A stretch of 64,000 bases of DNA, taken from Deltaproteobacteria bacterium. Lineage in GTDB: Bacteria; UBA10199; JACPAL01. The stretch is from assembly GCA_016180845.1 (NCBI GenBank), contig JACPAK010000001.1:150836-214835 (forward strand). Reading direction: 5' to 3'. This document shows, piece after piece, positions 51,553 through 63,402 of the stretch (its first letter is position 1; each line of letters begins with the position of its first letter). Below the pieces are notes generated by a model that was given only the letters and a program-made list of their open reading frames with translations, did no database searches and was not told the origin of the DNA. The position numbers and the translations under genes are program-made.

Positions 51553-52263
51553 ATGGAAAAACCGGCGAAGCCACGTTGTGAAGTCTGTCCCTCCCGCCTC
51601 CTCGGCGTCTTTTGTACCTTGGAGGGAGGGGTGCTTGACGAATTCAACAAGCACAAGACAACAAACGAATACAAAAAAGGTCAGGTCATCTTCTACGAGG
51701 GAAATCAGGCCTATGGGCTTTATTGTATCTTCTCTGGAAAGGTGAAACTCTACAAAACCGGGGTTGATGGAAAACAACAGATCGTCCGGATCGTCGGTCC
51801 TGGCGATCTTCTCGGTTACCGCGCTTTTTTTTCTGACGAACCGTATCATGCCACGGGAGAGGTCTTGGAAGACGCGACCATTTGTTGTATTGATAAAAAT
51901 GCCTTTCTTTCAGTCCTCGCAAAGAACTCGCAACTTGCCTTTAATGTGATCAAAAAGATGTCAAAAGACCTCCGTGTTGCCGAAGATCTGGCAACCAGTA
52001 TTGCCCAAAAATCGGTTCGGGAGCGAATGGCGGAACTCCTCCTGATGCTGAAGGAGACCTACGGCAAGCAAACAAAGAAGGGGCATGTCATCGAAATTCA
52101 CCTCTCGCGGGAAGAGTTAGCCGAAATGATCGGGATCACACAGGAAACCGCTATCCGTCTCCTTTCCGAATTCAAAAAAGACGGGATGATTGAAGTCAAG
52201 GACAGAGAGATCACGGTGCTCGATTCCAAGTCGCTTCTTGAAACTGCCGGCATTGAATTCTGA
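51553..52263 (+). CDS. Crp/Fnr family transcriptional regulator with possible Fe-S cysteines
   Basis: A 236-residue regulator. Residues 9-21 contain CEVC and a further Cys (C9, C12, C21), an Fnr-like cluster arrangement with wider spacing than E. coli FNR; other Cys occur at about 58 and 111-112. A cyclic-nucleotide-type sensor barrel follows (KKGQVIFYEGNQAYGLYCIF, GPGDLLGYRAFFSDEPYHAT), then the dimer helix. The HTH is LSREELAEMIGITQETAIRL, whose recognition helix keeps the Glu and Arg that contact TGA in CRP and FNR, but has Ile where FNR has Ser. An oxygen- or redox-sensing role is likely. Four TGAT-N4-ATCA palindromes downstream are its best candidate targets. Confidence 0.88.
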   Translation: MEKPAKPRCEVCPSRLLGVFCTLEGGVLDEFNKHKTTNEYKKGQVIFYEGNQAYGLYCIFSGKVKLYKTGVDGKQQIVRIVGPGDLLGYRAFFSDEPYHATGEVLEDATICCIDKNAFLSVLAKNSQLAFNVIKKMSKDLRVAEDLATSIAQKSVRERMAELLLMLKETYGKQTKKGHVIEIHLSREELAEMIGITQETAIRLLSEFKKDGMIEVKDREITVLDSKSLLETAGIEF

Positions 52264-52269
52264 CACAGC

Positions 52270-52281
52270 TGATCAAGATCA
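52270..52281. promoter_or_regulatory. Fnr/Crp-type operator upstream of the orphan sensor gene
   Basis: TGATCAAGATCA is a perfect palindrome of the TGAT-N4-ATCA type. A TTATAA hexamer at 52305-52310 is a good -10 element, placed so that the palindrome centre would be near -41.5, the position of an Fnr-activated class II promoter. It lies 58 bases before the gene at 52339. Confidence 0.65.
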
Positions 52282-52338
52282 TATCCACAACTGAGTCCTG
52301 TCATTTATAAACAAGCTAGCTCATTTACTCTTAGAATT

Positions 52339-52671
52339 ATGACGAATGAAGAGATTCTTTCCGCCTTAAAGGGACAATGGGGAAACCTCCTGAAGAAAGG
52401 TCAGCCGCTGATCTTTCACAAAGGACAGGTCCTTGTTTACGAAGGGCACGACCCCTACGGTGTTTTTGTCATCCAATCCGGGGATATTCAGTTTACGAAG
52501 GGGAAATCATCCTGTCCTGCAGAGCATTTCTGGCACTCTCCAAAAGGAAATGTTTTAGGAGTCGAGCATTTTTTCGATGGAAGTCCTTTTTGTTGCACCT
52601 GTGTTGCCACTTCGGACTGCCGTGTAGTCTTTATTTCCAAGACTCAATTACTGCCATTCGCCACGAAATGA
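52339..52671 (+). CDS. Orphan cyclic-nucleotide-binding-type sensor domain protein
   Basis: A 110-residue protein that is only the N-terminal barrel of a Crp/Fnr regulator. It has LLKKGQPLIFHKGQVLVYEG, HDPYGVFVIQSGDIQFTKGK and GNVLGVEHFFDGSPFCCTCV, with no dimer helix and no HTH. Cysteines are conspicuous (SSCPAEHF, FCCTCVATSDC), which could bind a cofactor. It lies 75 bases after the Fnr-type regulator gene and carries an Fnr-type operator. It could modulate the full-length regulator by forming mixed dimers or by competing for ligand, but that is inference. Confidence 0.75.
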   Translation: MTNEEILSALKGQWGNLLKKGQPLIFHKGQVLVYEGHDPYGVFVIQSGDIQFTKGKSSCPAEHFWHSPKGNVLGVEHFFDGSPFCCTCVATSDCRVVFISKTQLLPFATK

Positions 52672-52697
52672 ATTTGTCTCTGCTTTTCGAAAACGCA

Positions 52698-52709
52698 TGA
52701 TTAAGATCA
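52698..52709. promoter_or_regulatory. Fnr/Crp-type operator upstream of the cytochrome oxidase operon
   Basis: TGATTAAGATCA has the TGAT-N4-ATCA pattern and, like the site at 52270, continues into TAT. It lies 39 bases before coxB. No strong -10 hexamer stands at the class II distance, so activation or repression cannot be told. Confidence 0.55.
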
Positions 52710-52748
52710 TATATTAAATTTTTCTCGTCACCTAAACCCGTCCCACAA

Positions 52749-53435
52749 ATGACCTCCTGGCTTCCCGAAGACATTTCAACTTATGGTCACGGAATTGATC
52801 ATACAATTCGTGTCATCTACTACATCGTCGGGGCCTGGTTTGTCCTTACGGAGGCGGTCCTTTTCTATTTCATCATCCGCTATCGGAAGCGAAAAACAAC
52901 CACCGCGACCTATCAACCCGGCACCACTTTTAAGGCACTCGCCTGGATTTTATTGCCAGCGGCGCTGATCCTTGTTTTTGATCTTGGAATCGATCTTGTC
53001 CAAGGACCTGTCTGGAATGAAATCAAGATCTATCTTCCCACGGCAGATCAGACGGTCCGGATCAAGGGACGGCAATTCGTCTGGGAGATCACCCATCCGG
53101 GGGCCGACGGGAAATTGGAGACACCGGACGATATTCAAATCTTGAATCAACTCGTCGTGCCGGTTCACAAGAAAATTCAATTCGAACTTCAGTCGGAAGA
53201 TGTCCTGCATAGCCTCTGGATTCCGAACTTAAGGCTCAAGCAGGATGCGGTGCCGGGTCGCACGATCAAGGGTTGGTTTGAAGCGACGAAGGAGGGGATC
53301 TATCCGCTCGCCTGCGCGGAACTGTGCGGCAGTGGCCATGGGACGATGAAGGGACAACTGCAGGTCTTGAACGAAACGGATTACCAGAACTGGTTAAAGG
53401 AGAACAGAAGCCTGGAGGTTGGACGTGTCGAATAA
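52749..53435 (+). CDS. coxB: Cytochrome c oxidase subunit II
   Basis: A 228-residue subunit with two N-terminal membrane helices (YYIVGAWFVLTEAVLFYFII, ALAWILLPAALILVFDLGI) and a periplasmic cupredoxin domain. The CuA site is complete: His in DVLHSLWIPNLRLKQDAVPG and the Cys/Glu/Cys/His/Met set in LACAELCGSGHGTMKG. There is no signal peptide and no extra cytochrome c domain. It accepts electrons from cytochrome c. It is the first gene of the cox operon and overlaps coxA. Confidence 0.95.
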   Translation: MTSWLPEDISTYGHGIDHTIRVIYYIVGAWFVLTEAVLFYFIIRYRKRKTTTATYQPGTTFKALAWILLPAALILVFDLGIDLVQGPVWNEIKIYLPTADQTVRIKGRQFVWEITHPGADGKLETPDDIQILNQLVVPVHKKIQFELQSEDVLHSLWIPNLRLKQDAVPGRTIKGWFEATKEGIYPLACAELCGSGHGTMKGQLQVLNETDYQNWLKENRSLEVGRVE

Positions 53436-55083
53436 TCATTTGAGTTTTTGGCGCCGTTATCTTTTTTCCGTCGACCACAAGGTAATCGGAAAACAATACC
53501 TGATCACCGGCCTTTTGATGGCAATCATCGGGGGTTACCTCGCCTATCTCTTCCGATACCAGCTCGCCTTTCCGAATGAACCGGTCCCGGGATACGGATT
53601 GGTGGGACCCGATCAATACAACTCCTTCGTCACGATGCATGGAACGATCATGGTCTTTTGGGTCGCGATGCCGATCCTGCTCTCCGGATTTGGGAATTTC
53701 CTGCTTCCCCTCATGATCGGCGCCGGAGACATGGCCTTCCCGCGTCTCAACATGACATCTTACTGGGTCTTTTTCTTGAGCACCGTCGTCCTCCTGCTTT
53801 CATTCTTCGTTCCGGGCGGATCCTTCTCAGGAGGGTGGACTATTTATCCCCCCCTCTCCGCATCGCCCGGTTACACCGGCGTCATATGGGGCGGACACCT
53901 CTGGATCCTTGCCGTCGCGCTTGAATTCACCTCGATGCTGATGGGAGGAATAAATTTCCTGACAACGACCGTGGCAATGAGGGCCAAGGGGATGGGTCTC
54001 TTTCGGCTCCCGATCTTTGTCTGGATGATCAATATCGCCTCCATCCTCTTCATGTTTTCTGTCGGGCCCCTCATCGCCGGGGCCTTTATGCTGCTGGCCG
54101 ACCGGCTCTTTGATGTCGGTTTTTATCTCCCCGCCTCCGGTGGAGATCCGCTCCTCTTTCAACATCTCTTTTGGTTCTTTGGTCACCCGGAGGTTTATGT
54201 CCTTTTGCTGCCGGCGCTCGGGATCATTGCCGAAATTTTCCCTGTCTTCTCGCGCAAGCCGCTCTTCGGTTATCGAACGATTATCTATTCAACACTGGTT
54301 GCTGGCCTGCTCAGTTTCATCGTCTGGGCCCATCACCAGTTTATCAGCGGCATCGACCCCCGACTTGCGGCCCCTTTCAGTGTCACAACAATCCTGATTT
54401 CTGTCCCATTCGCTATCACCCTCTTCGCCTTTATTGCGACCCTGTGGCGCGGGTCGATCCGGCTCACGACATCGATGCTCTTCGCCCTCGGAATGCTCGC
54501 AGAATTCCTGGTCGGAGGGGTTACGGGGATCTTCAACGGCTCGACCGCTGCCGATATTTACATCCATGACACGCTTTTCGTCGTCGCCCATTTCCACTAC
54601 ACCTTATTCCCTGTCACCTTCATCGCCACATTCGCCGGCATCTACTACTGGTACCCAAAGATGTTCGGGAGATTCATGAACGAAACATGGGGCAAGGTGC
54701 ATTTCTGGATCACGATCATCGGTTTCAATGCGGTTTTTCTGCCGATGTTTGCGTTCGGTCTGGCAGGACATCAACGCCGGATCTTCGATCCGACCCTCTT
54801 TGATTATCTCCAACCGTATCAGTATCTCCACGTCATCGCGACGGTCGGTCTGATCGTGATGTTGGCGGGGCAAATCCCTTTCATCATCAATTTTTTTGCA
54901 AGCCTTTCCCGAGGGAAGGTGGTCGATCGAAATCCATGGTTGGCCAACACCCTCGAATGGCTCGCTCCTTCACCACCGGGACATGGAAATTTTGATCAGG
55001 AACCGGTCGTTCAGCGAGGACCGTATGAGTACAGTCATCCCTTGTTAAAAGAAAGAGACTGGATCAGCCAGGGGGAGTTATGA
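53425..55083 (+). CDS. coxA: Cytochrome c oxidase subunit I
   Basis: A 12-helix haem-copper oxidase subunit of about 552 residues. GTG at 53425 is chosen because GGAGG lies 6 bases upstream (TTG at 53419 is possible). Haem and copper ligands are all present: SFVTMHGTIMVFWVAM, WFFGHPEVYVLLLP (CuB His and the cross-linked Tyr), IVWAHHQFISGID (two CuB His) and VVAHFHYTLFPV (haem ligands). The D-pathway Asp is in GAGDMAFPRLN. At the K-pathway site, where A-family enzymes have VPTGIK, this protein has VPFAIT, so the Lys looks replaced. It reduces O2 to water while pumping protons. Confidence 0.95.
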   Translation: MSNNHLSFWRRYLFSVDHKVIGKQYLITGLLMAIIGGYLAYLFRYQLAFPNEPVPGYGLVGPDQYNSFVTMHGTIMVFWVAMPILLSGFGNFLLPLMIGAGDMAFPRLNMTSYWVFFLSTVVLLLSFFVPGGSFSGGWTIYPPLSASPGYTGVIWGGHLWILAVALEFTSMLMGGINFLTTTVAMRAKGMGLFRLPIFVWMINIASILFMFSVGPLIAGAFMLLADRLFDVGFYLPASGGDPLLFQHLFWFFGHPEVYVLLLPALGIIAEIFPVFSRKPLFGYRTIIYSTLVAGLLSFIVWAHHQFISGIDPRLAAPFSVTTILISVPFAITLFAFIATLWRGSIRLTTSMLFALGMLAEFLVGGVTGIFNGSTAADIYIHDTLFVVAHFHYTLFPVTFIATFAGIYYWYPKMFGRFMNETWGKVHFWITIIGFNAVFLPMFAFGLAGHQRRIFDPTLFDYLQPYQYLHVIATVGLIVMLAGQIPFIINFFASLSRGKVVDRNPWLANTLEWLAPSPPGHGNFDQEPVVQRGPYEYSHPLLKERDWISQGEL

Positions 55084-55625
55084 AACATCGTCTCGGCATC
55101 TGGTTTTTTTTAGGCTCCGAAATCGCCGTCTTCGGGGGATTGATCGCCTGTTATCTGCTCTATCGCTTTCGCCATCCGGAATGGGGGTTGCAGGCGGTTC
55201 ACACCCTGACCGGAATCGGTGCGATCAACACAGTCGTACTTCTTACCAGCAGCCTCACAATGATCCTCGCGCATTGGTTTGTTGAAGAAGACAATTTCAA
55301 ATCGGCTGCGAATTATCTTGGGATGACAATCCTGCTTGGAATCGTCTTCCTTCTCTTCAAGTCTTATGAATATCACCATGAAATCAATCAGGGGCTCGTA
55401 CCAACAAAGAGCCTCTTTTGGGGCTTTTACTATCTGATGACCGGCCTCCATGCCCTGCATGTTATCGGAGGTCTGGTGGCGAACGGGATCATCTGGACGG
55501 GACTCCGAAAGGGGTTCTCCACACATCGGATCGAATCGGTCGGGATTTATTGGCACTTCGTTGACGTCGTCTGGATCTTCCTCTTCCCCCTCCTTTATAT
55601 AGCCTCTTCTGGAGGTGCCCAGTGA
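55080..55625 (+). CDS. coxC: Cytochrome c oxidase subunit III
   Basis: A 181-residue membrane protein with five helices. FFLGSEIAVFGGLIACYLLY at the start, then FKSYEYHHEINQGLVPTKSL, GFYYLMTGLHALHVIGGL and the closing GIYWHFVDVVWIFLFPLLYI are the conserved subunit III blocks. The last carries the Trp-His-Phe-Val-Asp motif. It lacks the first two helices of long COIII, as is usual for bacterial short forms. Overlaps of 4 bases join it to coxA and coxD. Confidence 0.94.
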   Translation: MKHRLGIWFFLGSEIAVFGGLIACYLLYRFRHPEWGLQAVHTLTGIGAINTVVLLTSSLTMILAHWFVEEDNFKSAANYLGMTILLGIVFLLFKSYEYHHEINQGLVPTKSLFWGFYYLMTGLHALHVIGGLVANGIIWTGLRKGFSTHRIESVGIYWHFVDVVWIFLFPLLYIASSGGAQ

Positions 55626-55891
55626 AACCGCGTCACCTTGTTGGGATCTGGGTACTCCTGCTTGTCCTCTTGGGGGTCAGTCTTCTCTTGGCCAATCTTG
55701 GGAACGTCCTGCTTGCAACGACACTCATATTTGGGGTTGCCGCCCTGAAGGCGACACTCGTCGCGCTGTTTTACATGCGTCTTAAATGGGAACCGGGGTA
55801 TATCTTCGCCATCATCTTTACCGGACTTGCGGTTGTGCTGATCCTCTTTTTCACCCTCGTTCCTGATATCATCTACGTTTATGGAAACTAA
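55622..55891 (+). CDS. coxD: Cytochrome c oxidase subunit IV-like protein
   Basis: An 89-residue protein with three membrane helices (WVLLLVLLGVSLLLANL, TTLIFGVAALKATLVALFYM, IFAIIFTGLAVVLILFFTLV). The K-A-x-L-V-A-x-F-Y-M-x-L block is typical of the prokaryotic COX4 family. GTG start, with a 4-base overlap with coxC and an 11-base overlap with the next gene. Confidence 0.85.
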   Translation: MKPRHLVGIWVLLLVLLGVSLLLANLGNVLLATTLIFGVAALKATLVALFYMRLKWEPGYIFAIIFTGLAVVLILFFTLVPDIIYVYGN

Positions 55892-56432
55892 AAAAGGCCA
55901 GATTGGACTTCTGTTTTTTCTGGCAACCGAGGTGATGTTTTTTGCCGGTCTCTTTTCTGCCTACTGGGTCCTTCGCGCGCAGACAGGGGAATGGCCCCCT
56001 GTCGGCCAACCGCGCCTTCCAGTCCTCGTCACCGGAATCAATACCGTTATCCTGCTCCTGAGCGCCGTCGCCATCTGGCGGGCCGATGCCGCCCAAAAAA
56101 AAGGGTGTCATCTTTGTCTTGTCGGTTGGTTAGGACTGACAGGCGTCGGTGGTCTTCTGTTTCTTGGAATCCAAGGGTATGAATGGATGCGATTGATCCA
56201 GTTCGGTCTCACAACAGCCCGAAATATCTACGGCGGCATCTTTTATATGATTGTCGGCGCGCATGGGGTCCATGTCATTGCGGCACTCATCGTTCTCTTG
56301 GTCGTCTTTCTAAAAGCGGTCCGCTATCGGTATGCAGAAACCAACAAAACGGGTCTCGTCCTCTTTCAGATCTATTGGACCTTTGTTGTCTTGCTCTGGC
56401 CGGTGATCTATGTGGCCATCTATCTACTTTAA
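55881..56432 (+). CDS. Second cytochrome c oxidase subunit III-like protein
   Basis: A 183-residue paralogue of coxC. LLFFLATEVMFFAGLFSAYW, IQGYEWMRLIQFGLTTARNI, FYMIVGAHGVHVIAALIVLL and FQIYWTFVVLLWPVIYVAIY match subunit III blocks, but the final WHFVD motif is degraded to YWTFVV. Two subunit III genes around one subunit IV gene occur in several deltaproteobacterial oxidase operons. It may be a structural partner of the first subunit III or serve a different assembly. Confidence 0.88.
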   Translation: METKKGQIGLLFFLATEVMFFAGLFSAYWVLRAQTGEWPPVGQPRLPVLVTGINTVILLLSAVAIWRADAAQKKGCHLCLVGWLGLTGVGGLLFLGIQGYEWMRLIQFGLTTARNIYGGIFYMIVGAHGVHVIAALIVLLVVFLKAVRYRYAETNKTGLVLFQIYWTFVVLLWPVIYVAIYLL

Positions 56433-56440
56433 GTGGAAAA

Positions 56441-56490
56441 TAAATCCCCCCTTAATCCCCCCTTTGTCAAAGGGGAGTTGGGGGGGATTT
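56441..56490. repeat. C-rich/G-rich imperfect inverted repeat
   Basis: Two AATCCCCCC-type blocks joined by TTAA are followed by a 7-base centre and a complementary G-rich arm ending GGGGGGGATTT. Arrays of this kind are dispersed in many bacterial genomes and often sit behind genes. It starts just after the stop of the second subunit III gene and is followed by TTTTT, so it may also act as a terminator. Confidence 0.7.
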
Positions 56491-56682
56491 TTCTGGATTC
56501 TTCTATCAAGCGAAGAGCTTTGGGCTTGTCCCCTTTGTGTGACTAACTTGGGCCGCTCCACTGTTTACCGCTGGCCAACCCTCCTGCTGATCCTCATCCC
56601 TTTGATAATGCTTGGCATTCTGGGATGGTGGCTGCATCGCCTCATCAAAAAAGAATTGGAAAAGGATCATCCGACCAGCTGA
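56463..56682 (+). CDS. Small membrane protein of the oxidase operon, start inside a repeat
   Basis: A protein of up to 72 residues with WACPLCVTNLG followed by a membrane helix (WPTLLLILIPLIMLGILGWW) and a basic tail (LHRLIKKELEKDHP). The CPLC pair and single helix suggest a small oxidase-associated or exported protein. The frame is open back to 56410, but that includes the C/G-rich repeat, so the natural start is unclear; the TTG at 56463 is a placeholder. The repeat may have replaced the original signal sequence. Confidence 0.4.
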
Positions 56683-56724
56683 TCTCCGTCATGTCGATTT
56701 TTGTGAGGTAGGGGGACAGTGTAA

Positions 56725-56905
56725 CCAATGGTCTCATGCCAAAATTTTTCGCCGGCTAGTGCCTTCGCGGTCACCCTCATGGCACTGGCGTGCAATGAAC
56801 CTTCGCGCAGTGCTGCCGCGCGTTTTCATTGCCCGCCAATGCTCATGGGGTTCCCGACCGCTCTCGGCAAACCCGACTCAAAATTTTACGCATGAGACCA
56901 TTGGA
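56725..56905. mobile_element. MITE-like palindromic element
   Basis: A 181-base element bounded by inverted repeats: CCAATGGTCTCATGC at 56725-56739 and its complement at 56891-56905, each extended inward by AAAATTTT with a one-base offset. A second, nested inverted repeat (56782-56799 and 56825-56842) matches at 16 of 18 positions. No coding capacity is evident and no clear target duplication could be seen. The whole could fold into one long hairpin. It ends 5 bases before the feoB start. Confidence 0.65.
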
Positions 56906-56910
56906 AACTC

Positions 56911-58887
56911 ATGATGCAAAGTACACCAATAAAAATGGCTGTTTCCTCTACTGAGCCCGCGAAACATCAACGAATCGCCCTGATTGGTAATCCTAACGTC
57001 GGCAAGAGCGTGCTGTTCGGTCTTTTGGGGGGACACTATGCCTCCGTTTCCAATTACCCCGGGACCACTGTCGAGGTCTCCTCCGTCGAGACAACCCTTC
57101 ATCGAGAAAAAACTACCTTTTGGGATACCCCCGGTGTCAACCTCCTCGTCCCGATGTCAGAGGCGGAAAAGGTCACGCGGGATATCCTCCTGACCGAACC
57201 GATCGATGCCGTGATTCAGGTTGCCGACGCGAAAAACCTGCGCCGTTCGCTCCTCCTCTCCCTTCAACTCGCCGAGATGGGGATCCCGTTCCTCTTAAAT
57301 CTCAATATGGAAGATGAATCATCCAAACGTGGAATCTTAATCGACAAGGAACAACTCGCCTCCTTGCTCGGAATTCCTGTCGTTGGAACCATCGCGATCA
57401 AAAAAAAGGGGATCGAGGAATTAAAACAAAAAATCGCCTCTGTGCGAACCTCAACATTTGCTTTTCATTATTCAAAAGAGATTGAAGAGGCGATCCATAA
57501 AATAGAGATCCGTCTTCCTAATTCACGCATCTCAAAAAGATCGATTGCCGTGATGATCCTGGCCGGTGACAAAAGCCTCAATGACTGGCTCTCCATCGGA
57601 GTCCCTCCTCCCGTGATGAAGGAGATCGAGCATATCCAAAACGAGACGGCAGAAAAATTTGCCGAACCGCTGCTTTATCTGATGAACCGGGAACGTTTAA
57701 AACAGGTCGACCTGATTCTAAAAACAGTTTTTCTCAAAAAATCCGGACAAAAGAAGGAGTGGCTCGAACTTTTCGGCAAGCTCTCGATGCACCCTGTGGG
57801 TGGTTTTGTAGTCCTGACAGGGGTTTTATTCGCCCTCTATGAATTTGTCGGCAAATTCGGAGCGCAAACCGGCGTCAACTGGCTCGAAAAAGTTCTGTTC
57901 GGTCAATACTTGAACCCCTGGGCCAAAGCTTTTTTTTCAACACTCTTTTCCTCGTCCCCATTCCTCAGTGATCTCTTCGTCGGTCCCTATGGGCTGATCA
58001 CGATGGGACTCACCTACGCCTTTGGGATCATCTTCCCGATTGTGCTAACCTTCTTTATCTTCTTCGGTCTCATGGAGGACTCGGGCTATCTGCCAAGACT
58101 CGCGGTCATGATGAACAGGCTTTTCCGGATCATGGGACTCAATGGAAGGGCGGTCGTCCCGATGGTCTTGGGGTTGGGTTGCGATACGATGGCGACTGTT
58201 TCCTCCCGAATCATGGATACCAAGAAAGAGCGGGTCATTTTGACCTTCCTGCTCGCACTCGGTGTCCCCTGTTCGGCCCAGCTCGGGATCATCCTCGGGA
58301 TGTTTGGATCCCTCCCGCGATGGGCCCCGTTCCTCTGGGGCGGCGTGGTCGGTGGGGTCATGATCTTTATGGGTTTCCTCGCCTCCAGGGTTCTTCGAGG
58401 AGAGACCTCTGACTTCATCGCCGAGATCCCCCCGATCCGAAGGCCTCTCCTGAAAAATATCATGACGAAGACGATCGCCCGACTTGAGTGGTATCTGAAA
58501 GAGGTCACACCCCTCTTCCTCATCGCGACATTTTTTCTTTTCTTGCTCGACCGGCTTCACCTGATCGCAGCGATCCAGAACGCCGCCTCCCCGTTGATTG
58601 TGAAGGGACTCAGCCTCCCCCCCGAGGCGACTGAGGTTTTTCTGGCAGGATTTTTGAGACGAGATTATGCCGCGACCTATTTTTTCGATCTCTTTAATAA
58701 AGGAATGCTGGACACGACGCAGGCAATTGTCTGCCTTATCGTCATCACCCTCTTCGTCCCCTGTCTCGCGAATCTCCTGATGATCGTCAAGGAGCGAGGC
58801 GCACGGACCGCGACGGTGATGGTTGGGCTGGTTTATCTGATCGCGTTTGCCGTTGGTGGAATTGTTAATTTTATCTTGAGAATTTGA
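56911..58887 (+). CDS. feoB: Ferrous iron transporter FeoB
   Basis: A 658-residue FeoB. The N-terminal G domain has G1 GNPNVGKSVLFGLL, YPGTTVEVSS, G3 FWDTPGVN and a helical adaptor. The membrane part has two Gate-type halves: FFGLMEDSGYLPRLAVMMNR, GLNGRAVVPMVLGLGCDTMA (conserved Cys of the pore) and LGVPCSAQLGIILGMF; then FLAGFLRRDYAATYFFDLF and LVIVKERG-like sequence near the end. It imports Fe(II). The ATG used is directly at the border of the MITE-like element and no ribosome binding site is evident; an ATG at 56935 is an alternative. The FeoA gene follows. Confidence 0.95.
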   Translation: MMQSTPIKMAVSSTEPAKHQRIALIGNPNVGKSVLFGLLGGHYASVSNYPGTTVEVSSVETTLHREKTTFWDTPGVNLLVPMSEAEKVTRDILLTEPIDAVIQVADAKNLRRSLLLSLQLAEMGIPFLLNLNMEDESSKRGILIDKEQLASLLGIPVVGTIAIKKKGIEELKQKIASVRTSTFAFHYSKEIEEAIHKIEIRLPNSRISKRSIAVMILAGDKSLNDWLSIGVPPPVMKEIEHIQNETAEKFAEPLLYLMNRERLKQVDLILKTVFLKKSGQKKEWLELFGKLSMHPVGGFVVLTGVLFALYEFVGKFGAQTGVNWLEKVLFGQYLNPWAKAFFSTLFSSSPFLSDLFVGPYGLITMGLTYAFGIIFPIVLTFFIFFGLMEDSGYLPRLAVMMNRLFRIMGLNGRAVVPMVLGLGCDTMATVSSRIMDTKKERVILTFLLALGVPCSAQLGIILGMFGSLPRWAPFLWGGVVGGVMIFMGFLASRVLRGETSDFIAEIPPIRRPLLKNIMTKTIARLEWYLKEVTPLFLIATFFLFLLDRLHLIAAIQNAASPLIVKGLSLPPEATEVFLAGFLRRDYAATYFFDLFNKGMLDTTQAIVCLIVITLFVPCLANLLMIVKERGARTATVMVGLVYLIAFAVGGIVNFILRI

Positions 58888-58898
58888 GGGAGTGTAAA

Positions 58899-59333
58899 AT
58901 GACCAAGTGTCCTCTTTGCCAACGTGAATTTGATGAGCAAAACGCCTGCCGGGGGTGTGGTCTCCGGAAGGGGTGTCAACTCTGGAGATGCCCGTATTGC
59001 CATTACGAGTTTGTTGAAAAGTCCTCCCTGATCGATTTCCTGAAACGAATCGGAAGTCGTTTCAAAAAGGAAAAAACCCTCCCTGTCGTCAGCGAAGACC
59101 CCCTCGTCATCTCGCTGACTGAAGGGATCGAGGGAGAAAACTATCAGGTTGTCTTTGTCCGTCCACGGCATGAGATGCGTCTGAACCATCTCGCCAGTTT
59201 TGGCGTGGTCCCCGGCAGTGAAATCTCACTCCATCAAAAAAGACCGGCCTTTGTAATCCAAGCGGGCGAAACCGAGATCGCACTCGAAGAGACGGTTGTC
59301 AAAGAGATCTTTGTCAAAAAAACAGCGCCCTGA
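58899..59333 (+). CDS. FeoA domain protein with N-terminal zinc ribbon
   Basis: A protein of about 144 residues (ATG at 58899 after GGGAGTGT). The first 50 residues hold seven cysteines in CPLCQREFDEQNACRGCGL and GCQLWRCPYCHYEF, a zinc ribbon. Residues 70-144 form the FeoA SH3-like fold (RLNHLASFGVVPGSEISLHQ, AGETEIALEETVVKEIFVKK). Plain FeoA is about 80 residues, so the ribbon is an addition. FeoA helps FeoB; the ribbon might sense metal or redox state (inference). The gene is 11 bases behind feoB. Confidence 0.85.
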   Translation: MTKCPLCQREFDEQNACRGCGLRKGCQLWRCPYCHYEFVEKSSLIDFLKRIGSRFKKEKTLPVVSEDPLVISLTEGIEGENYQVVFVRPRHEMRLNHLASFGVVPGSEISLHQKRPAFVIQAGETEIALEETVVKEIFVKKTAP

Positions 59334-59342
59334 TGAGAATCA
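59331..59342. promoter_or_regulatory. Fnr/Crp-type operator upstream of the cytochrome-porin gene
   Basis: TGATGAGAATCA fits TGAT-N4-ATCA and again continues into TAT. A TTATAT hexamer at 59365-59370 lies at the class II spacing found for the site at 52270. The site begins at the stop codon of the FeoA gene, 87 bases before the ATG at 59429. Confidence 0.6.
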
Positions 59343-59428
59343 TATAGCCACATGCTTTGAATCATTATATGCGTCTGAAATCGATAGTAAAAAAAAATTA
59401 ACAAACTTCTTTCAAGAAAGGGGGCTTC

Positions 59429-60682
59429 ATGAAAAACAAACTGATCCGATGGTGGCTAGAGGGTGTAGCGATTCTCTTCTTTACCTTCCTCCTCCTGCCA
59501 CAACAGGCCAACGCCACTGCACAATGGGCCCGGAAGTACCAGATGAACTGTCAAACCTGTCACACCTCGTTCCCGAGACTCACCTACTTCGGGGAAAAAT
59601 TCGCGCGGAACGGCTACCAGTTGCCGGACACCCAAGATGGGGATGAAACGAAAGAGGCGGTCGGCGACCATCTCTTTATCGACAAGATCGGAAATCTCCT
59701 CGGAATGCGAATCAGTGTCTCACCCGTCGAAGCCACAACAAATACACTCAACATCGATGGGAGCCGGAAGGATTTTGAGTTTAATTTCGGTGATACCAAG
59801 TGGCTCCAGTTCTTTACAGCAGGAAGTATTTTCAAGAATGCCTCCATTTTCATAGAGACCGAGATTGAACCGACGGCGGTTCATCTCAACTGGTTTACAC
59901 TCGGCTATCACAATCTCTTTGATTCAAGCCTCCTCAATGTTCGGGCTGGCCGCATCTCAATGATGAACTGGCATGCCCAATCAGGACGCCTGAGGATGAT
60001 TCCAAACGTCAACGTCGCTTCACACAGGTTTCGTCCCAGCCAAGGGGCAAACCGAGCGGTCGCAGAAGAGCCGATCCGAATCAGCTCACCGGTCCCTGGA
60101 ATCGAGCTTTATGGATACCGTGAATTCTTCCTCTACTCCGTCGGTGTCTCCAACGGTGAAGATATGGACGACCCGAACCAGTACAAGAACTTCTTCGGGA
60201 CACTCCGTTTCGATTTGCCCGAAGGGGAACTGGCAGGAAGTAACATCAGTGGCTGGGGGATGTGGGGACGAGATACAGTAAATTCAGGAGCTGAATCAAC
60301 CCCCATAGCGCAGACACGCAACACCTTCTATCGTCTCTCTCCAGCGGTTAATGTGCGGTGGAAGGGATATGATCTCATCGGGGCTTATGTGTATGGGAAG
60401 GAAGATAATTACAATCTGGTTGACCCCGAAGTAACCAACAAGAGTCACGGTGCGACAGGTCAGCTCGGCTACCTGATCCATCCACAGTGGTTCGCAGCGC
60501 TCCAGTATGACTTCGTGAAGGATGATCAAAACAGCCGGGACGAATTCCACAAGATCTCGGAGAGCGTCTCCTTCATGCCACGAGAGAACATGAGGATCGG
60601 GCTGACCTTACGTGAAGACATGAAGAAACCAACGACCGGTCGGCAGCATGAATTGCTGCTAAATGTTCGTTCCATGTTTTAA
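59429..60682 (+). CDS. Outer-membrane monohaem cytochrome c-porin fusion (Cyc2-like architecture)
   Basis: A 417-residue exported protein. After a signal peptide (EGVAILFFTFLLLPQQANA), residues 31-70 are a short cytochrome segment: QWARKYQMNCQTCHTSFPRL then FGEKFARNGYQLP, with one CxxCH haem site. The remaining roughly 340 residues alternate strands and loops, as in a porin barrel, and end in Phe (ELLLNVRSMF). A monohaem cytochrome fused to a porin is the layout of Cyc2, the outer-membrane Fe(II) oxidase, though broader families with the same start are uncharacterised. It follows feoB-feoA, has its own Fnr-type site and precedes ccm genes. The ribosome binding site is GAAAGGGGG. Confidence 0.78.
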   Translation: MKNKLIRWWLEGVAILFFTFLLLPQQANATAQWARKYQMNCQTCHTSFPRLTYFGEKFARNGYQLPDTQDGDETKEAVGDHLFIDKIGNLLGMRISVSPVEATTNTLNIDGSRKDFEFNFGDTKWLQFFTAGSIFKNASIFIETEIEPTAVHLNWFTLGYHNLFDSSLLNVRAGRISMMNWHAQSGRLRMIPNVNVASHRFRPSQGANRAVAEEPIRISSPVPGIELYGYREFFLYSVGVSNGEDMDDPNQYKNFFGTLRFDLPEGELAGSNISGWGMWGRDTVNSGAESTPIAQTRNTFYRLSPAVNVRWKGYDLIGAYVYGKEDNYNLVDPEVTNKSHGATGQLGYLIHPQWFAALQYDFVKDDQNSRDEFHKISESVSFMPRENMRIGLTLREDMKKPTTGRQHELLLNVRSMF

Positions 60683-60714
60683 AGTCACTCATACCCCAAG
60701 GTGACTCAACAAGC

Positions 60715-60739
60715 GGGGCAGGCCTTACAGGCCTGCCCC
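60715..60739 (+). terminator. Strong hairpin after the cytochrome-porin gene
   Basis: GGGGCAGGCCT and AGGCCTGCCCC form a perfect 11-bp stem with a 3-base loop, 32 bases after the stop codon. The tract that follows is pyrimidine-rich (GTCTTCTTCTC) rather than a pure T run. It likely separates the cytochrome-porin gene from the ccm operon. Confidence 0.75.
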
Positions 60740-60756
60740 GTCTTCTTCTCAATTTC

Positions 60757-60768
60757 TGATCCTCATCA
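60757..60768. promoter_or_regulatory. Fnr/Crp-type operator upstream of the ccm operon
   Basis: TGATCCTCATCA matches TGAT-N4-ATCA and continues into TAT as the three other sites do. It lies 58 bases before ccmA. No good -10 hexamer is seen at the class II position. Confidence 0.5.
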
Positions 60769-60826: not shown

Positions 60827-61510
60827 ATGGATCGACCTGTCATCGAACTCAAAAATCTGGGGAAGCGCTTTGGAACCCATTGGGTCCTCTCTCAGATCAA
60901 CCTTTCTGTCGGGGCCGGGGAATCGATCGCCCTTTTCGGAGGAAACGGCTCCGGCAAATCAACGCTGCTCAAGATCCTTGCGACCCTTCTCTCCCCCTCT
61001 CGAGGATCGGTTTTGATCTGTGGTGCCGATGCAACCCACGAAAAAAGGGAAATTCGCGAACTCTTAAGATATCTCGCCCATGAAAAACAGCTCTACGGAC
61101 CTCTCACCGTCTCCGAAACGCTCCAGCTTGTAGCGGGACTTAGGCAGGTCACCCCTCCGCTAGCAAAAAAGGTTAAAGATGAAATCCTTGAACGTCTTCA
61201 ACTCGATCGTTTTTCAGGAAAAAAGGTCAGCCAGCTCTCGGAGGGACTCAAAAAAAGGCTCGTCCTCGCCCGACTCCTCTTTGGGATCGAAGAGGCCCAA
61301 TTGATTCTCCTGGACGAACCGCATCCGACCCTCGACAAGGAGGGGAGAAGGATCCTCGATGAATTGATCTCGGAATGGAAAAAACAGGGCAAAACGATCC
61401 TGATCGCGAGTCACGACCATGCTGAGGCGCTCGCACATGCCGATCGTCTTCTGGTCCTTGATGGTGGACAACTCATCTATGACGGCCAGCCAAAAGGATT
61501 CTCGCTATGA
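60827..61510 (+). CDS. ccmA: Cytochrome c maturation ABC ATPase CcmA
   Basis: A 227-residue ABC ATPase with Walker A GGNGSGKSTLLK, signature QLSEGLKKRLVLARLL, Walker B LILLDEPHPTLD and switch His in ASHDHAEALA. On sequence alone it is a general ABC ATPase; the overlap with ccmB and the following ccmC-F identify it as CcmA, which with CcmB drives release of haem-loaded CcmE. The signature has SEG rather than SGG. Confidence 0.92.
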   Translation: MDRPVIELKNLGKRFGTHWVLSQINLSVGAGESIALFGGNGSGKSTLLKILATLLSPSRGSVLICGADATHEKREIRELLRYLAHEKQLYGPLTVSETLQLVAGLRQVTPPLAKKVKDEILERLQLDRFSGKKVSQLSEGLKKRLVLARLLFGIEEAQLILLDEPHPTLDKEGRRILDELISEWKKQGKTILIASHDHAEALAHADRLLVLDGGQLIYDGQPKGFSL

Positions 61511-62193
61511 TATCTTTTTTGTCCCAGACTTATTGGATTCTAACAAAAGACCTGAAGATCGAGTTTCGTGAGCTCTATCATTTGATCTCTGTTTTTCTCT
61601 TCGGATTCCTTCTGCTGATTCTCTTGAGTTTTTCACTGGGCAGTCATCCGGATCTGATGAAAAAAATAGCACCGGGTCTCTTCTGGATTGCCATTTTTTT
61701 CTCTTCCATCTTGATGCTCAACAGCTCCTTCCGCCGGGAAATGGAGGATGGTCAATGGGAAGGACTGCTTCTTTTAAGTATCGATCCTAAGGCGCTTTAC
61801 CTGGGAAAACTTCTAGGAAATTTCCTCTTCCTCCTGGTTCTCGAAATCGGGCTCCTTCCTTTTCTCGTCATCTTTTTCGACCTCTCTCTCAATCCATCGC
61901 TCCTCTCGATCCTCATTTTAGGGAGTGCCGGAATCGCCACGGTCGGAACCTTTTACGCCGGGCTGATCACCTCTTTCCGCGAGGGGCAGATCCTGCTCCC
62001 GCTGCTGCTGTTCCCGATGCTTGTGCCCGTACTCCTCGCCTCTGTCCAGGCAACCCAATACCTGATGACAGACGATCCCTTCGGCCAGCAAATTATCTGG
62101 GTCCGCCTCCTGATCGTCTTTGATTTTATTTTTTTGTTAGGGTCTATTTTGTTAGCGGATTTAATGTTTGAAGAACCGCAGGGAGGGAAATGA
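61507..62193 (+). CDS. ccmB: Haem exporter protein CcmB
   Basis: A 228-residue membrane protein with six helices (YHLISVFLFGFLLLILLSFS, FWIAIFFSSILMLNSSF, and later LLPLLLFPMLVPVLLASVQA). The DLKIEFRELYHLISVFLFG start and FRREMEDGQWEGLLLLSID loop are CcmB features. It forms the CcmABCD complex with its neighbours. Overlaps of 4 bases link it to ccmA and ccmC. Confidence 0.93.
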   Translation: MISFLSQTYWILTKDLKIEFRELYHLISVFLFGFLLLILLSFSLGSHPDLMKKIAPGLFWIAIFFSSILMLNSSFRREMEDGQWEGLLLLSIDPKALYLGKLLGNFLFLLVLEIGLLPFLVIFFDLSLNPSLLSILILGSAGIATVGTFYAGLITSFREGQILLPLLLFPMLVPVLLASVQATQYLMTDDPFGQQIIWVRLLIVFDFIFLLGSILLADLMFEEPQGGK

Positions 62194-62843
62194 TGAAAAC
62201 CAAATTGTTCGGCATTTTAGCTTTTGCCTTTCTCGGATTTGCTCACTACTGGGGACTTCGGGTTGCCCCGCCAGACGCCCTGATGGGGGATGTCTACCGG
62301 ATCCTTTTTGTGCATGTCCCAGCCGCCTGGATGGCGATGCTTTTTTTCTTTCTCTCCTTCATCGGATCAATCGGTTATCTCATTAAAAGAAAAAACTCAT
62401 GGGACCAATGGGCCGAATCGACTGCCGAGATTGGCCTCGTCCTGACCGGTTTGACGTTAGTTCTCGGGTCTATTTGGGGCAAACCGACATGGGGGGTTTG
62501 GTGGACTTGGGATCCTCGTCTGACCACGACAGCGCTTCTTTTAATTATGTACTCCGGGTATCTCATGATTCGAAAATTGATCTCCGACCCTGAAAGAAGA
62601 CCAAAAATTTCTGCCGCGATCGGACTTCTGACCTTTTTAAACGTCCCGATTGTCTATATGTCGGTCAAATGGTGGCGGAGCCTTCACCAGGTCCAGTCAT
62701 CCCCTCAAACGATGGACCCGGTCATGGTCTTGCCGCTTCGACTCGGCGCCCTCGCCCTATTGGCCGTTTGTCTCTTTTTCCTTATAGTGAGGTTAAAAAT
62801 TGCGAAGGAACGCGCCGTCCGTGAGGAAGGAGGTTCATCATGA
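62190..62843 (+). CDS. ccmC: Haem lyase/export protein CcmC
   Basis: A 217-residue six-helix protein. The tryptophan-rich haem-handling signature is WGKPTWGVWWTWDPRLTTTA, and VHVPAAWMAMLFFFLSFIG and VYMSVKWWRSLHQ hold the two haem-ligating His regions. CcmC attaches haem to CcmE in the periplasm. Coupled by overlaps to ccmB and ccmD. Confidence 0.95.
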   Translation: MMKTKLFGILAFAFLGFAHYWGLRVAPPDALMGDVYRILFVHVPAAWMAMLFFFLSFIGSIGYLIKRKNSWDQWAESTAEIGLVLTGLTLVLGSIWGKPTWGVWWTWDPRLTTTALLLIMYSGYLMIRKLISDPERRPKISAAIGLLTFLNVPIVYMSVKWWRSLHQVQSSPQTMDPVMVLPLRLGALALLAVCLFFLIVRLKIAKERAVREEGGSS

Positions 62844-62965
62844 TTCAAGGTGGATGGGGGTATATCATCGCGAGCTATACGATCACATGGGTCGTCTTGG
62901 GGCTTTATTTCGTTTCCCTTTTTGTCCGCGCAAATAAGACCAACCAGGAAAGGGACCGAACGTGA
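62840..62965 (+). CDS. ccmD: Small haem exporter subunit CcmD
   Basis: A 41-residue protein with one membrane helix (GYIIASYTITWVVLGLYFVS) and a charged tail. Size, single helix, and position between ccmC and ccmE with 4-base overlaps on both sides identify it as CcmD, which helps release haem-CcmE from the CcmABC complex. Sequence alone would not be enough. Confidence 0.82.
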   Translation: MIQGGWGYIIASYTITWVVLGLYFVSLFVRANKTNQERDRT

Positions 62966-63402
62966 AAAATCGTCGCCGATTGTTATTTGTTTTTTTAATT
63001 TTGGGGATCTTGAGTGGCCTCGGCTATCTCCTTTGGGGAGGGCTCGAGGAAAATCTGGTCTACTTCGTGACGCCAACAGAATTGATCGCGAAAGGAGACA
63101 AGGCGATCAACAATACCGTCCGGCTCGGCGGCGTCGTCGAGGCAGGCACGGTCCACTTCGAGTCAAACATCCTGAGCTTTGAAATCTCCGATGATCAACA
63201 AAAAGTTCCTGTCGTCACGACAGCGGCCCCGCCACAGATGTTTCACGAGGGGATGGGGGTGATCGTCGAAGGGAAGCTGGGTCCTGACAAACGATTCGTC
63301 GCCGATCGACTGATGGTCAAGCATGGCAATGAATACCGTCCCCCCAAAGAAGGTGAGATGCCACAGGAAATCTACAAGGAACTCAGTCAGGGGATGAAAT
63401 GA
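62962..63402 (+). CDS. ccmE: Cytochrome c-type biogenesis haem chaperone CcmE
   Basis: A 146-residue protein (GTG start): N-terminal membrane anchor (RLLFVFLILGILSGLGYLLW), an OB-fold periplasmic domain (RLGGVVEAGTVHFESNI, GVIVEGKLGPDKRFVADRLM), and the haem-attaching His with the HxxxY motif in MVKHGNEYRPP. CcmE carries haem from CcmC to the CcmF lyase. The His-type motif is retained, not the Cys variant. Confidence 0.95.
   Translation: MKNRRRLLFVFLILGILSGLGYLLWGGLEENLVYFVTPTELIAKGDKAINNTVRLGGVVEAGTVHFESNILSFEISDDQQKVPVVTTAAPPQMFHEGMGVIVEGKLGPDKRFVADRLMVKHGNEYRPPKEGEMPQEIYKELSQGMK

Follow-up and report, generated by a model that had tools for sequence, protein, structure and literature searches.

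We begin with the genes at the locus, which occupies part of a window (the whole stretch of DNA analysed, 64,000 nucleotides long) in a genome of 2.13 Mb. The gene at 51553..52263 (+ strand) encodes a Crp/Fnr regulator of the FNR type, here called REG, whose CNB and HTH_Crp domains score above cut-off (PF00027, PF13545). It is followed by the gene of a CNB-only protein, an orphan sensor (52339..52671, +; PF00027), which has neither a DNA-binding domain nor a long dimerisation helix. The cox operon comes next, with cox2 as its first gene (52749..53435, +; PF00116) and cox1 and cox3-type genes behind it (53419..56432, +; ORFs 53419, 55080, 55622 and 55881; PF00115 and PF00510), a region in which TIGR02891 falls just under its cut-off. 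Between the cox operon and feoB, a MITE-like element of about 200 bp (56715-56915) carries the terminal inverted repeats CCAATGGTCTCATG...CATGAGACCATTGG; its other genomic copies are 70-82% identical. At 58884-59333, a FeoA domain stands behind a CxxC zinc-ribbon-like N-terminus. The cytochrome-porin that follows (59429..60682, +) has a CQTCH haem motif near its N-terminus and a porin-sized remainder, and gives no match in Pfam or NCBIfam; with its single haem motif and its place beside feoAB, it is reminiscent of the Cyc2-type iron-oxidising porins. An intrinsic terminator-like hairpin (60713..60741, +) marks the boundary with the ccm genes (ccmA, ccmB, ccmC and ccmE; 60827..63402, +), of which ccmA matches PF00005 and the other three are named from order and content.

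The motif TGATNNNNATCATAT is found at 52270, 52698, 59331 and 60757, each time on the + strand and upstream of a + strand gene. The next starts are those of the CNB-only ORF (52339), cox2 (52749), the cytochrome-porin (59429) and ccmA (60827), respectively, and the TGA stop of the FeoA-like ORF provides the first bases of the 59331 site. The initial annotation had described TGAT-N4-ATCA followed by TAT at these four places, all upstream of genes, and we confirm the positions, the strands and the downstream genes.

Rarity and conservation of the sites

How unusual the sites are depends on how much of the motif is counted. The window contains nine copies of the 8-base core (besides the four, at 406, 463, 6440, 52127 and 53516), against a mean of 2.0 and a maximum of 6 in 100 dinucleotide shuffles; the earlier figures of about one expected and four found are thus both too low, while the clustering of the extended motif stands. 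The cores at 52127 and 53516 lie within coding sequence and are rejected as operators; the one at 52127 falls in the helix-turn-helix codons of REG itself (M-I-G-I-T), where the constraint is on the protein and is met with again in relatives. Over the whole genome the core is found 91 times, where about 67 are expected from the shuffle rate (about 1.4-fold); this density is close to random, so the core is not usable alone. A segment of 57 kb (C1:202900-260000) does hold 14 of the 91 cores against 2.4 expected (Poisson p 3e-7), for an interval that was picked post hoc. Of the 15-base motif, the 2.13 Mb contain only five copies, of which four are the sites at 52270, 52698, 59331 and 60757, and in 200,000 trials with five sites placed at random, none has four inside 8.5 kb. 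The palindrome has A or C at its outer position, G very rarely, and T in 0/52 sites; on this ground we reject TTGAT-N4-ATCAA as the reading of the motif, whose TGAT-N4-ATCA core is present.

The sites are also conserved. In a genome of another genus in the same family (G001), the motif stands at three unlinked loci, upstream of the CNB-only gene (C2:61801), the cytochrome-porin (C5:41592) and cox2 (C12:22430). The sites thereby withstand a refutation named in the initial annotation, lack of conservation in relatives. The four sites look like operators kept by evolution before respiration genes across a class of uncultured bacteria, to judge from the sequences, and the comparison with relatives supports the earlier reading, in which they are operators of the Fnr type that serve a respiratory regulon and lie next to its likely regulator.

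Paired palindromes and promoter geometry

When the regions downstream of REG are compared side by side, a second, weaker palindrome appears exactly 22 bp on. In the window, this tandem is present at 52270/52292, before the CNB-only gene (box 1, TGATCAAGATCA(TAT), 52270..52281, +; box 2, TGAGTCCTGTCA(TT), 52292..52303, +), and at 59331/59353, before the cytochrome-porin (box 1, TGATGAGAATCA(TAT), 59331..59342, +; box 2, TGCTTTGAATCA(TT), 59353..59364, +). The cox operon and the ccm genes have single operators (TGATTAAGATCA(TAT), 52698..52709, +, and TGATCCTCATCA(TAT), 60757..60768, +), and we count their lack of a clear second box against an FNR-type reading. The palindromes of the initial annotation hold as palindromes; as the unit of the operator they are incomplete, two of the four having the second box of a 22-bp tandem.

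To survey the spacing, we use the pattern TGATN4ATCA, a gap of 0-30, and TGAN6TCA on 46 genomes of the class and 53 genomes of other lineages. Among the places listed, the spacing is 22 bp in 39/135 for the class versus 2/118 for the other lineages (Fisher 5e-10), and in 11 Bacteroidota genomes with REG homologues it accounts for 21 of the 88 spacings. Orthologues of the cytochrome-porin have the tandem boxes upstream in five genomes (G001, G003, G005, G014, G025) and orthologues of ccmA in two (G007, G018); none are seen upstream of ccmA in G001. A few operators carry three boxes, with successive palindromes 22 bp apart (L164:1939-1994 in G006; L077, L079 and L098 near 13200). A small search of the open-access literature gives no match for a 22-bp FNR tandem, for Bacteroidota Fnr motifs or for the lineage, and because the search is small, the 22-bp design can be called new only provisionally.

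We then scan the 2.13 Mb with a composite model (R1) built from 25 sites of relatives only, zero of them from this genome. The 52270 tandem is ranked first (E 8.9e-6) and the 59331 tandem second (1.2e-4); next come C1:249943, which precedes a 97-aa ORF and moeA, and C1:242611, which precedes a gene for a DMSO-reductase-type-II-like Mo-enzyme. With Mo-enzyme and MoCo genes behind these last two sites, the regulon is respiratory, as the initial annotation had it, but not solely local. The cox site gives a weak partial match (E 0.19), and the ccm site is not among the matches listed for the composite model over the whole genome; with a PWM score of only 9.8, it is the weakest of the four. That the four sites are chance matches is extremely improbable. 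The near-random density of the core would allow it, while the uniqueness of the extended motif, its retention at orthologous promoters that are unlinked, and the ranking by an independent model contradict it for 52270, 52698 and 59331; at 60757 chance may still account for the match.

We turn to the position of the boxes in the promoter. When 58 tandem sites are taken together, the score for a hexamer of the -10 kind is highest at offset 30 from the centre of box 2 (mean -1.7, background about -4.3), and TAnnnT occurs there in 9 of the 58 and at offset 29 in 5 more. In Chitinophaga, wherever an operator is found to have a TAnnTTTG element, the first base of the element is at offset 30 from the promoter-proximal box. 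With this peak at 29-30, it is box 2 that takes the class II position, at about -41.5, and box 1 comes to about -63.5, the starts being set by proxy through the -10 and -7 elements. For the CNB-only gene, the class-wide peak points to TACTCT (52326..52331, +; at 29 bp from the centre of box 2) as the candidate -10, with box 1 near -63.5 and box 2 near -41.5. The start codon of CNB-only genes is often 36-37 bp after box 2, so their message would be nearly leaderless. The single cox site appears to fit the class II position as well, as judged by reading the distance to the -10: a TA-containing hexamer is seen at offset 29-30 in both this genome (G000) and G001, here TAAACC (52733-52738), 30 bp from the centre of the cox operator.

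The initial annotation had taken TTATAA and TTATAT for -10 elements at the spacing of a class II promoter. The strings are present, but at tandem promoters the role is probably wrong: it is box 2, and not box 1, to which the -10 element keeps its distance, and TTATAA is rejected as the -10 there. The corresponding geometry would put box 1 at -41.5 and let box 2 overlap the core promoter and repress at a high level of the regulator. TTATAA does lie at the right distance in the window, and autorepression is a plausible feedback loop. The offset that this arrangement demands nonetheless scores -4.5 over the 58 tandems, which is background, as opposed to -1.7 at the peak, and the Bacteroidota -7 element agrees with the placement of box 2 at -41.5; we consider the arrangement very doubtful.

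The regulator, its probable partner and the candidate targets

REG has the cysteines C9-X2-C12-X8-C21 plus C111. In 61 homologues, C9, C12 and C111 are found in 61/61 and C21 in 55/61, and in the recognition helix E198 and R202 are in 61/61 and I201 in 58/61. The recognition helix of E. coli FNR has E, S and R, its serine S212 being at the position that matches I201, and the outer A or C of the operators is consistent with I201 in place of the FNR serine. The nearest solved proteins are 2gau, the mycobacterial CRP and the Aliivibrio fischeri FNR. The NCBIfam models of Fnr and FnrL give 102 bits against a cut-off of 228 and 108 against 300, which we count against the FNR-type reading; REG, being below these cut-offs, is called FNR-type and not Fnr or FnrL itself. 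Of the 45 genomes of the class that were searched, about 30 have a close homologue. In the tree of REG, the greater part of the class groups together at moderate support, and the Bacteroidota branch elsewhere.

Only two HTH_Crp_2 proteins are found in the genome, REG and a Crp/Fnr paralogue on contig C8, which is without the cysteines and retains the E-x3-R of the recognition helix. This paralogue, as the sole other candidate, might bind the boxes, alone or sharing each tandem with REG. A weaker tandem (G000:C8:88538-88572, E 0.026) lies just downstream of its gene, followed by a 78-aa ORF and an Hsp20-like ORF, and tandems exist in some genomes without a close REG (3/24 versus 36/111 in those with it, among the places listed; p 0.08, a trend only, which we count against REG). 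The palindromes, on the other hand, adjoin REG in genome after genome, 4-53 bp past its stop in most close relatives and just before its start in several other families, and the same arrangement is seen beside the REG homologues of Bacteroidota. A role of the paralogue is accordingly quite unlikely, and we keep REG as the protein that would bind the boxes.

The CNB-only protein has a confident CNB fold (AlphaFold pLDDT 91); a fold search for its function returns the generic CNB fold, from which no function is gained. Its homologues occur in about 18 other genomes among the loci fetched, nearly all of them beside REG or behind the same tandem, and the protein is probably a feedback or co-sensing partner of REG. 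In the nearer relatives an EGHxPYG stretch is conserved, as is a cluster of cysteines (FCCTC...DC).

The targets in the class agree with those of an FNR regulon, in that they are genes of anaerobic or microaerobic respiration. Tandem sites stand before NarG operons, the NarG being above the TIGR01580 cut-off, and before genes for other molybdopterin oxidoreductases, MoaA, multihaem and monohaem cytochromes and an NfnA-like protein; cox, ccm, cytochrome-porin, universal stress protein, Hsp20 and histidine kinase genes are also among them. In the Bacteroidota, the cluster adjoining REG encodes a FixI-kind cation ATPase, a fused CcoNO and FixG. Members of the Crp/Fnr superfamily with an iron-sulphur cluster can respond not only to O2 but also to NO, so the signal may be nitric oxide or the general redox state in place of oxygen, or the regulator may repress aerobic genes; an A-type cox operon would be an unusual target of an anaerobic activator. 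The predominance of anaerobic or microaerobic respiration functions and the box to -10 spacing, which is that of activation, argue against these readings; we hold them to be unlikely.

The model and known systems

Combining these observations, the likely explanation is a low-oxygen regulon of the FNR type, in which REG would act on respiratory genes, often as paired dimers. REG would be a [4Fe-4S] regulator that, at low oxygen, binds the [A/C]TGAT-N4-ATCA palindromes and activates the respiratory genes. Many promoters would take up a pair of adjacent dimers at a distance of 22 bp, with the promoter-proximal box at about -41.5, 30 bp before the -10, and the distal box at about -63.5; the cox promoter would use a lone box in the class II position. 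Switching on of the gene adjacent to REG would then yield the CNB-only protein. In this scheme, the sites and how they are conserved, the rule of 22 bp, the distance to the -10, and the conserved cysteines and recognition helix are read directly from the genomes. That REG binds a cluster, responds to oxygen, activates and binds cooperatively we infer from family knowledge together with the geometry, and the role given to the CNB-only protein is likewise our inference.

The FNR of E. coli and A. fischeri resembles REG in its CNB and HTH_Crp domains, in four conserved cysteines, one of them in the CNB domain, and in the E and R of the recognition helix, and the two systems share the TGAT-N4-ATCA core and anaerobic-respiration targets. 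The cysteine spacing of E. coli FNR differs from the CX2CX8C of REG. REG further departs from E. coli FNR in I201 against S212, in falling below the NCBIfam cut-offs, and in operators with 22-bp tandems and an outer A or C instead of T, the non-T outer base being counted against the FNR-type reading. FixK2 and DNR are cluster-free Crp/Fnr regulators with respiratory targets and a related palindrome; REG, unlike them, has the conserved cysteines, and their structures (3dkw for DNR, 4i2o for FixK2) are more distant matches than FNR.

The Crp/Fnr regulators of Bacteroidota that head fixI-ccoNO-fixG clusters in Chitinophaga and Sediminibacterium are about 42-48% identical to REG. Chitinophaga has, like the class, the 22-bp tandem and 30 bp to the promoter element, and the cluster beside the regulator in a Sediminibacterium relative is that of a cbb3 oxidase. 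Their box 2 consensus is TTGA-N6-TCATTG and in the tree the regulator does not join the main group of the class; the CNB-only partner gene is not found at the Bacteroidota regulator loci. We tentatively propose, as an idea with somewhat less than even prospects, an FNR subfamily of two phyla in which side-by-side dimers at 22 bp are the normal activating complex on [A/C]TGAT and not TTGAT half-sites, paired in one lineage with an autoregulated CNB-only protein that tunes the response by sensing or by interference.

Binding of FNR at tandem sites has been described in E. coli, with a site at -41.5 and one upstream (Barnard, Green and Busby 2003; yfiD); as PMC11264516 describes it, the natural upstream site is far off, at -93.5 in yfiD, and sites at -85 to -95 repress. 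The second dimer proposed here, by contrast, would adjoin the first, at a fixed 22 bp and lineage-wide. This fixed pairing, which Chitinophaga shares, poses the question whether FNR can act as adjacent cooperating dimers, one of them touching the RNA polymerase at the class II position while its neighbour, immediately upstream, does the same. For a class of bacteria that as a whole is uncultured, the model would give an oxygen or redox regulon together with the geometry of its promoters, making many respiratory genes of the class predictable from sequence, and the conserved CNB-only neighbour would be a candidate for a new kind of feedback partner.

One further arrangement is seen in G024, where a REG-like protein (L166:774-1829) is apparently fused behind a response-regulator receiver domain, as judged from its N-terminal sequence. 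A 22-bp tandem directly follows this fusion, and the gene of a universal stress protein is next.
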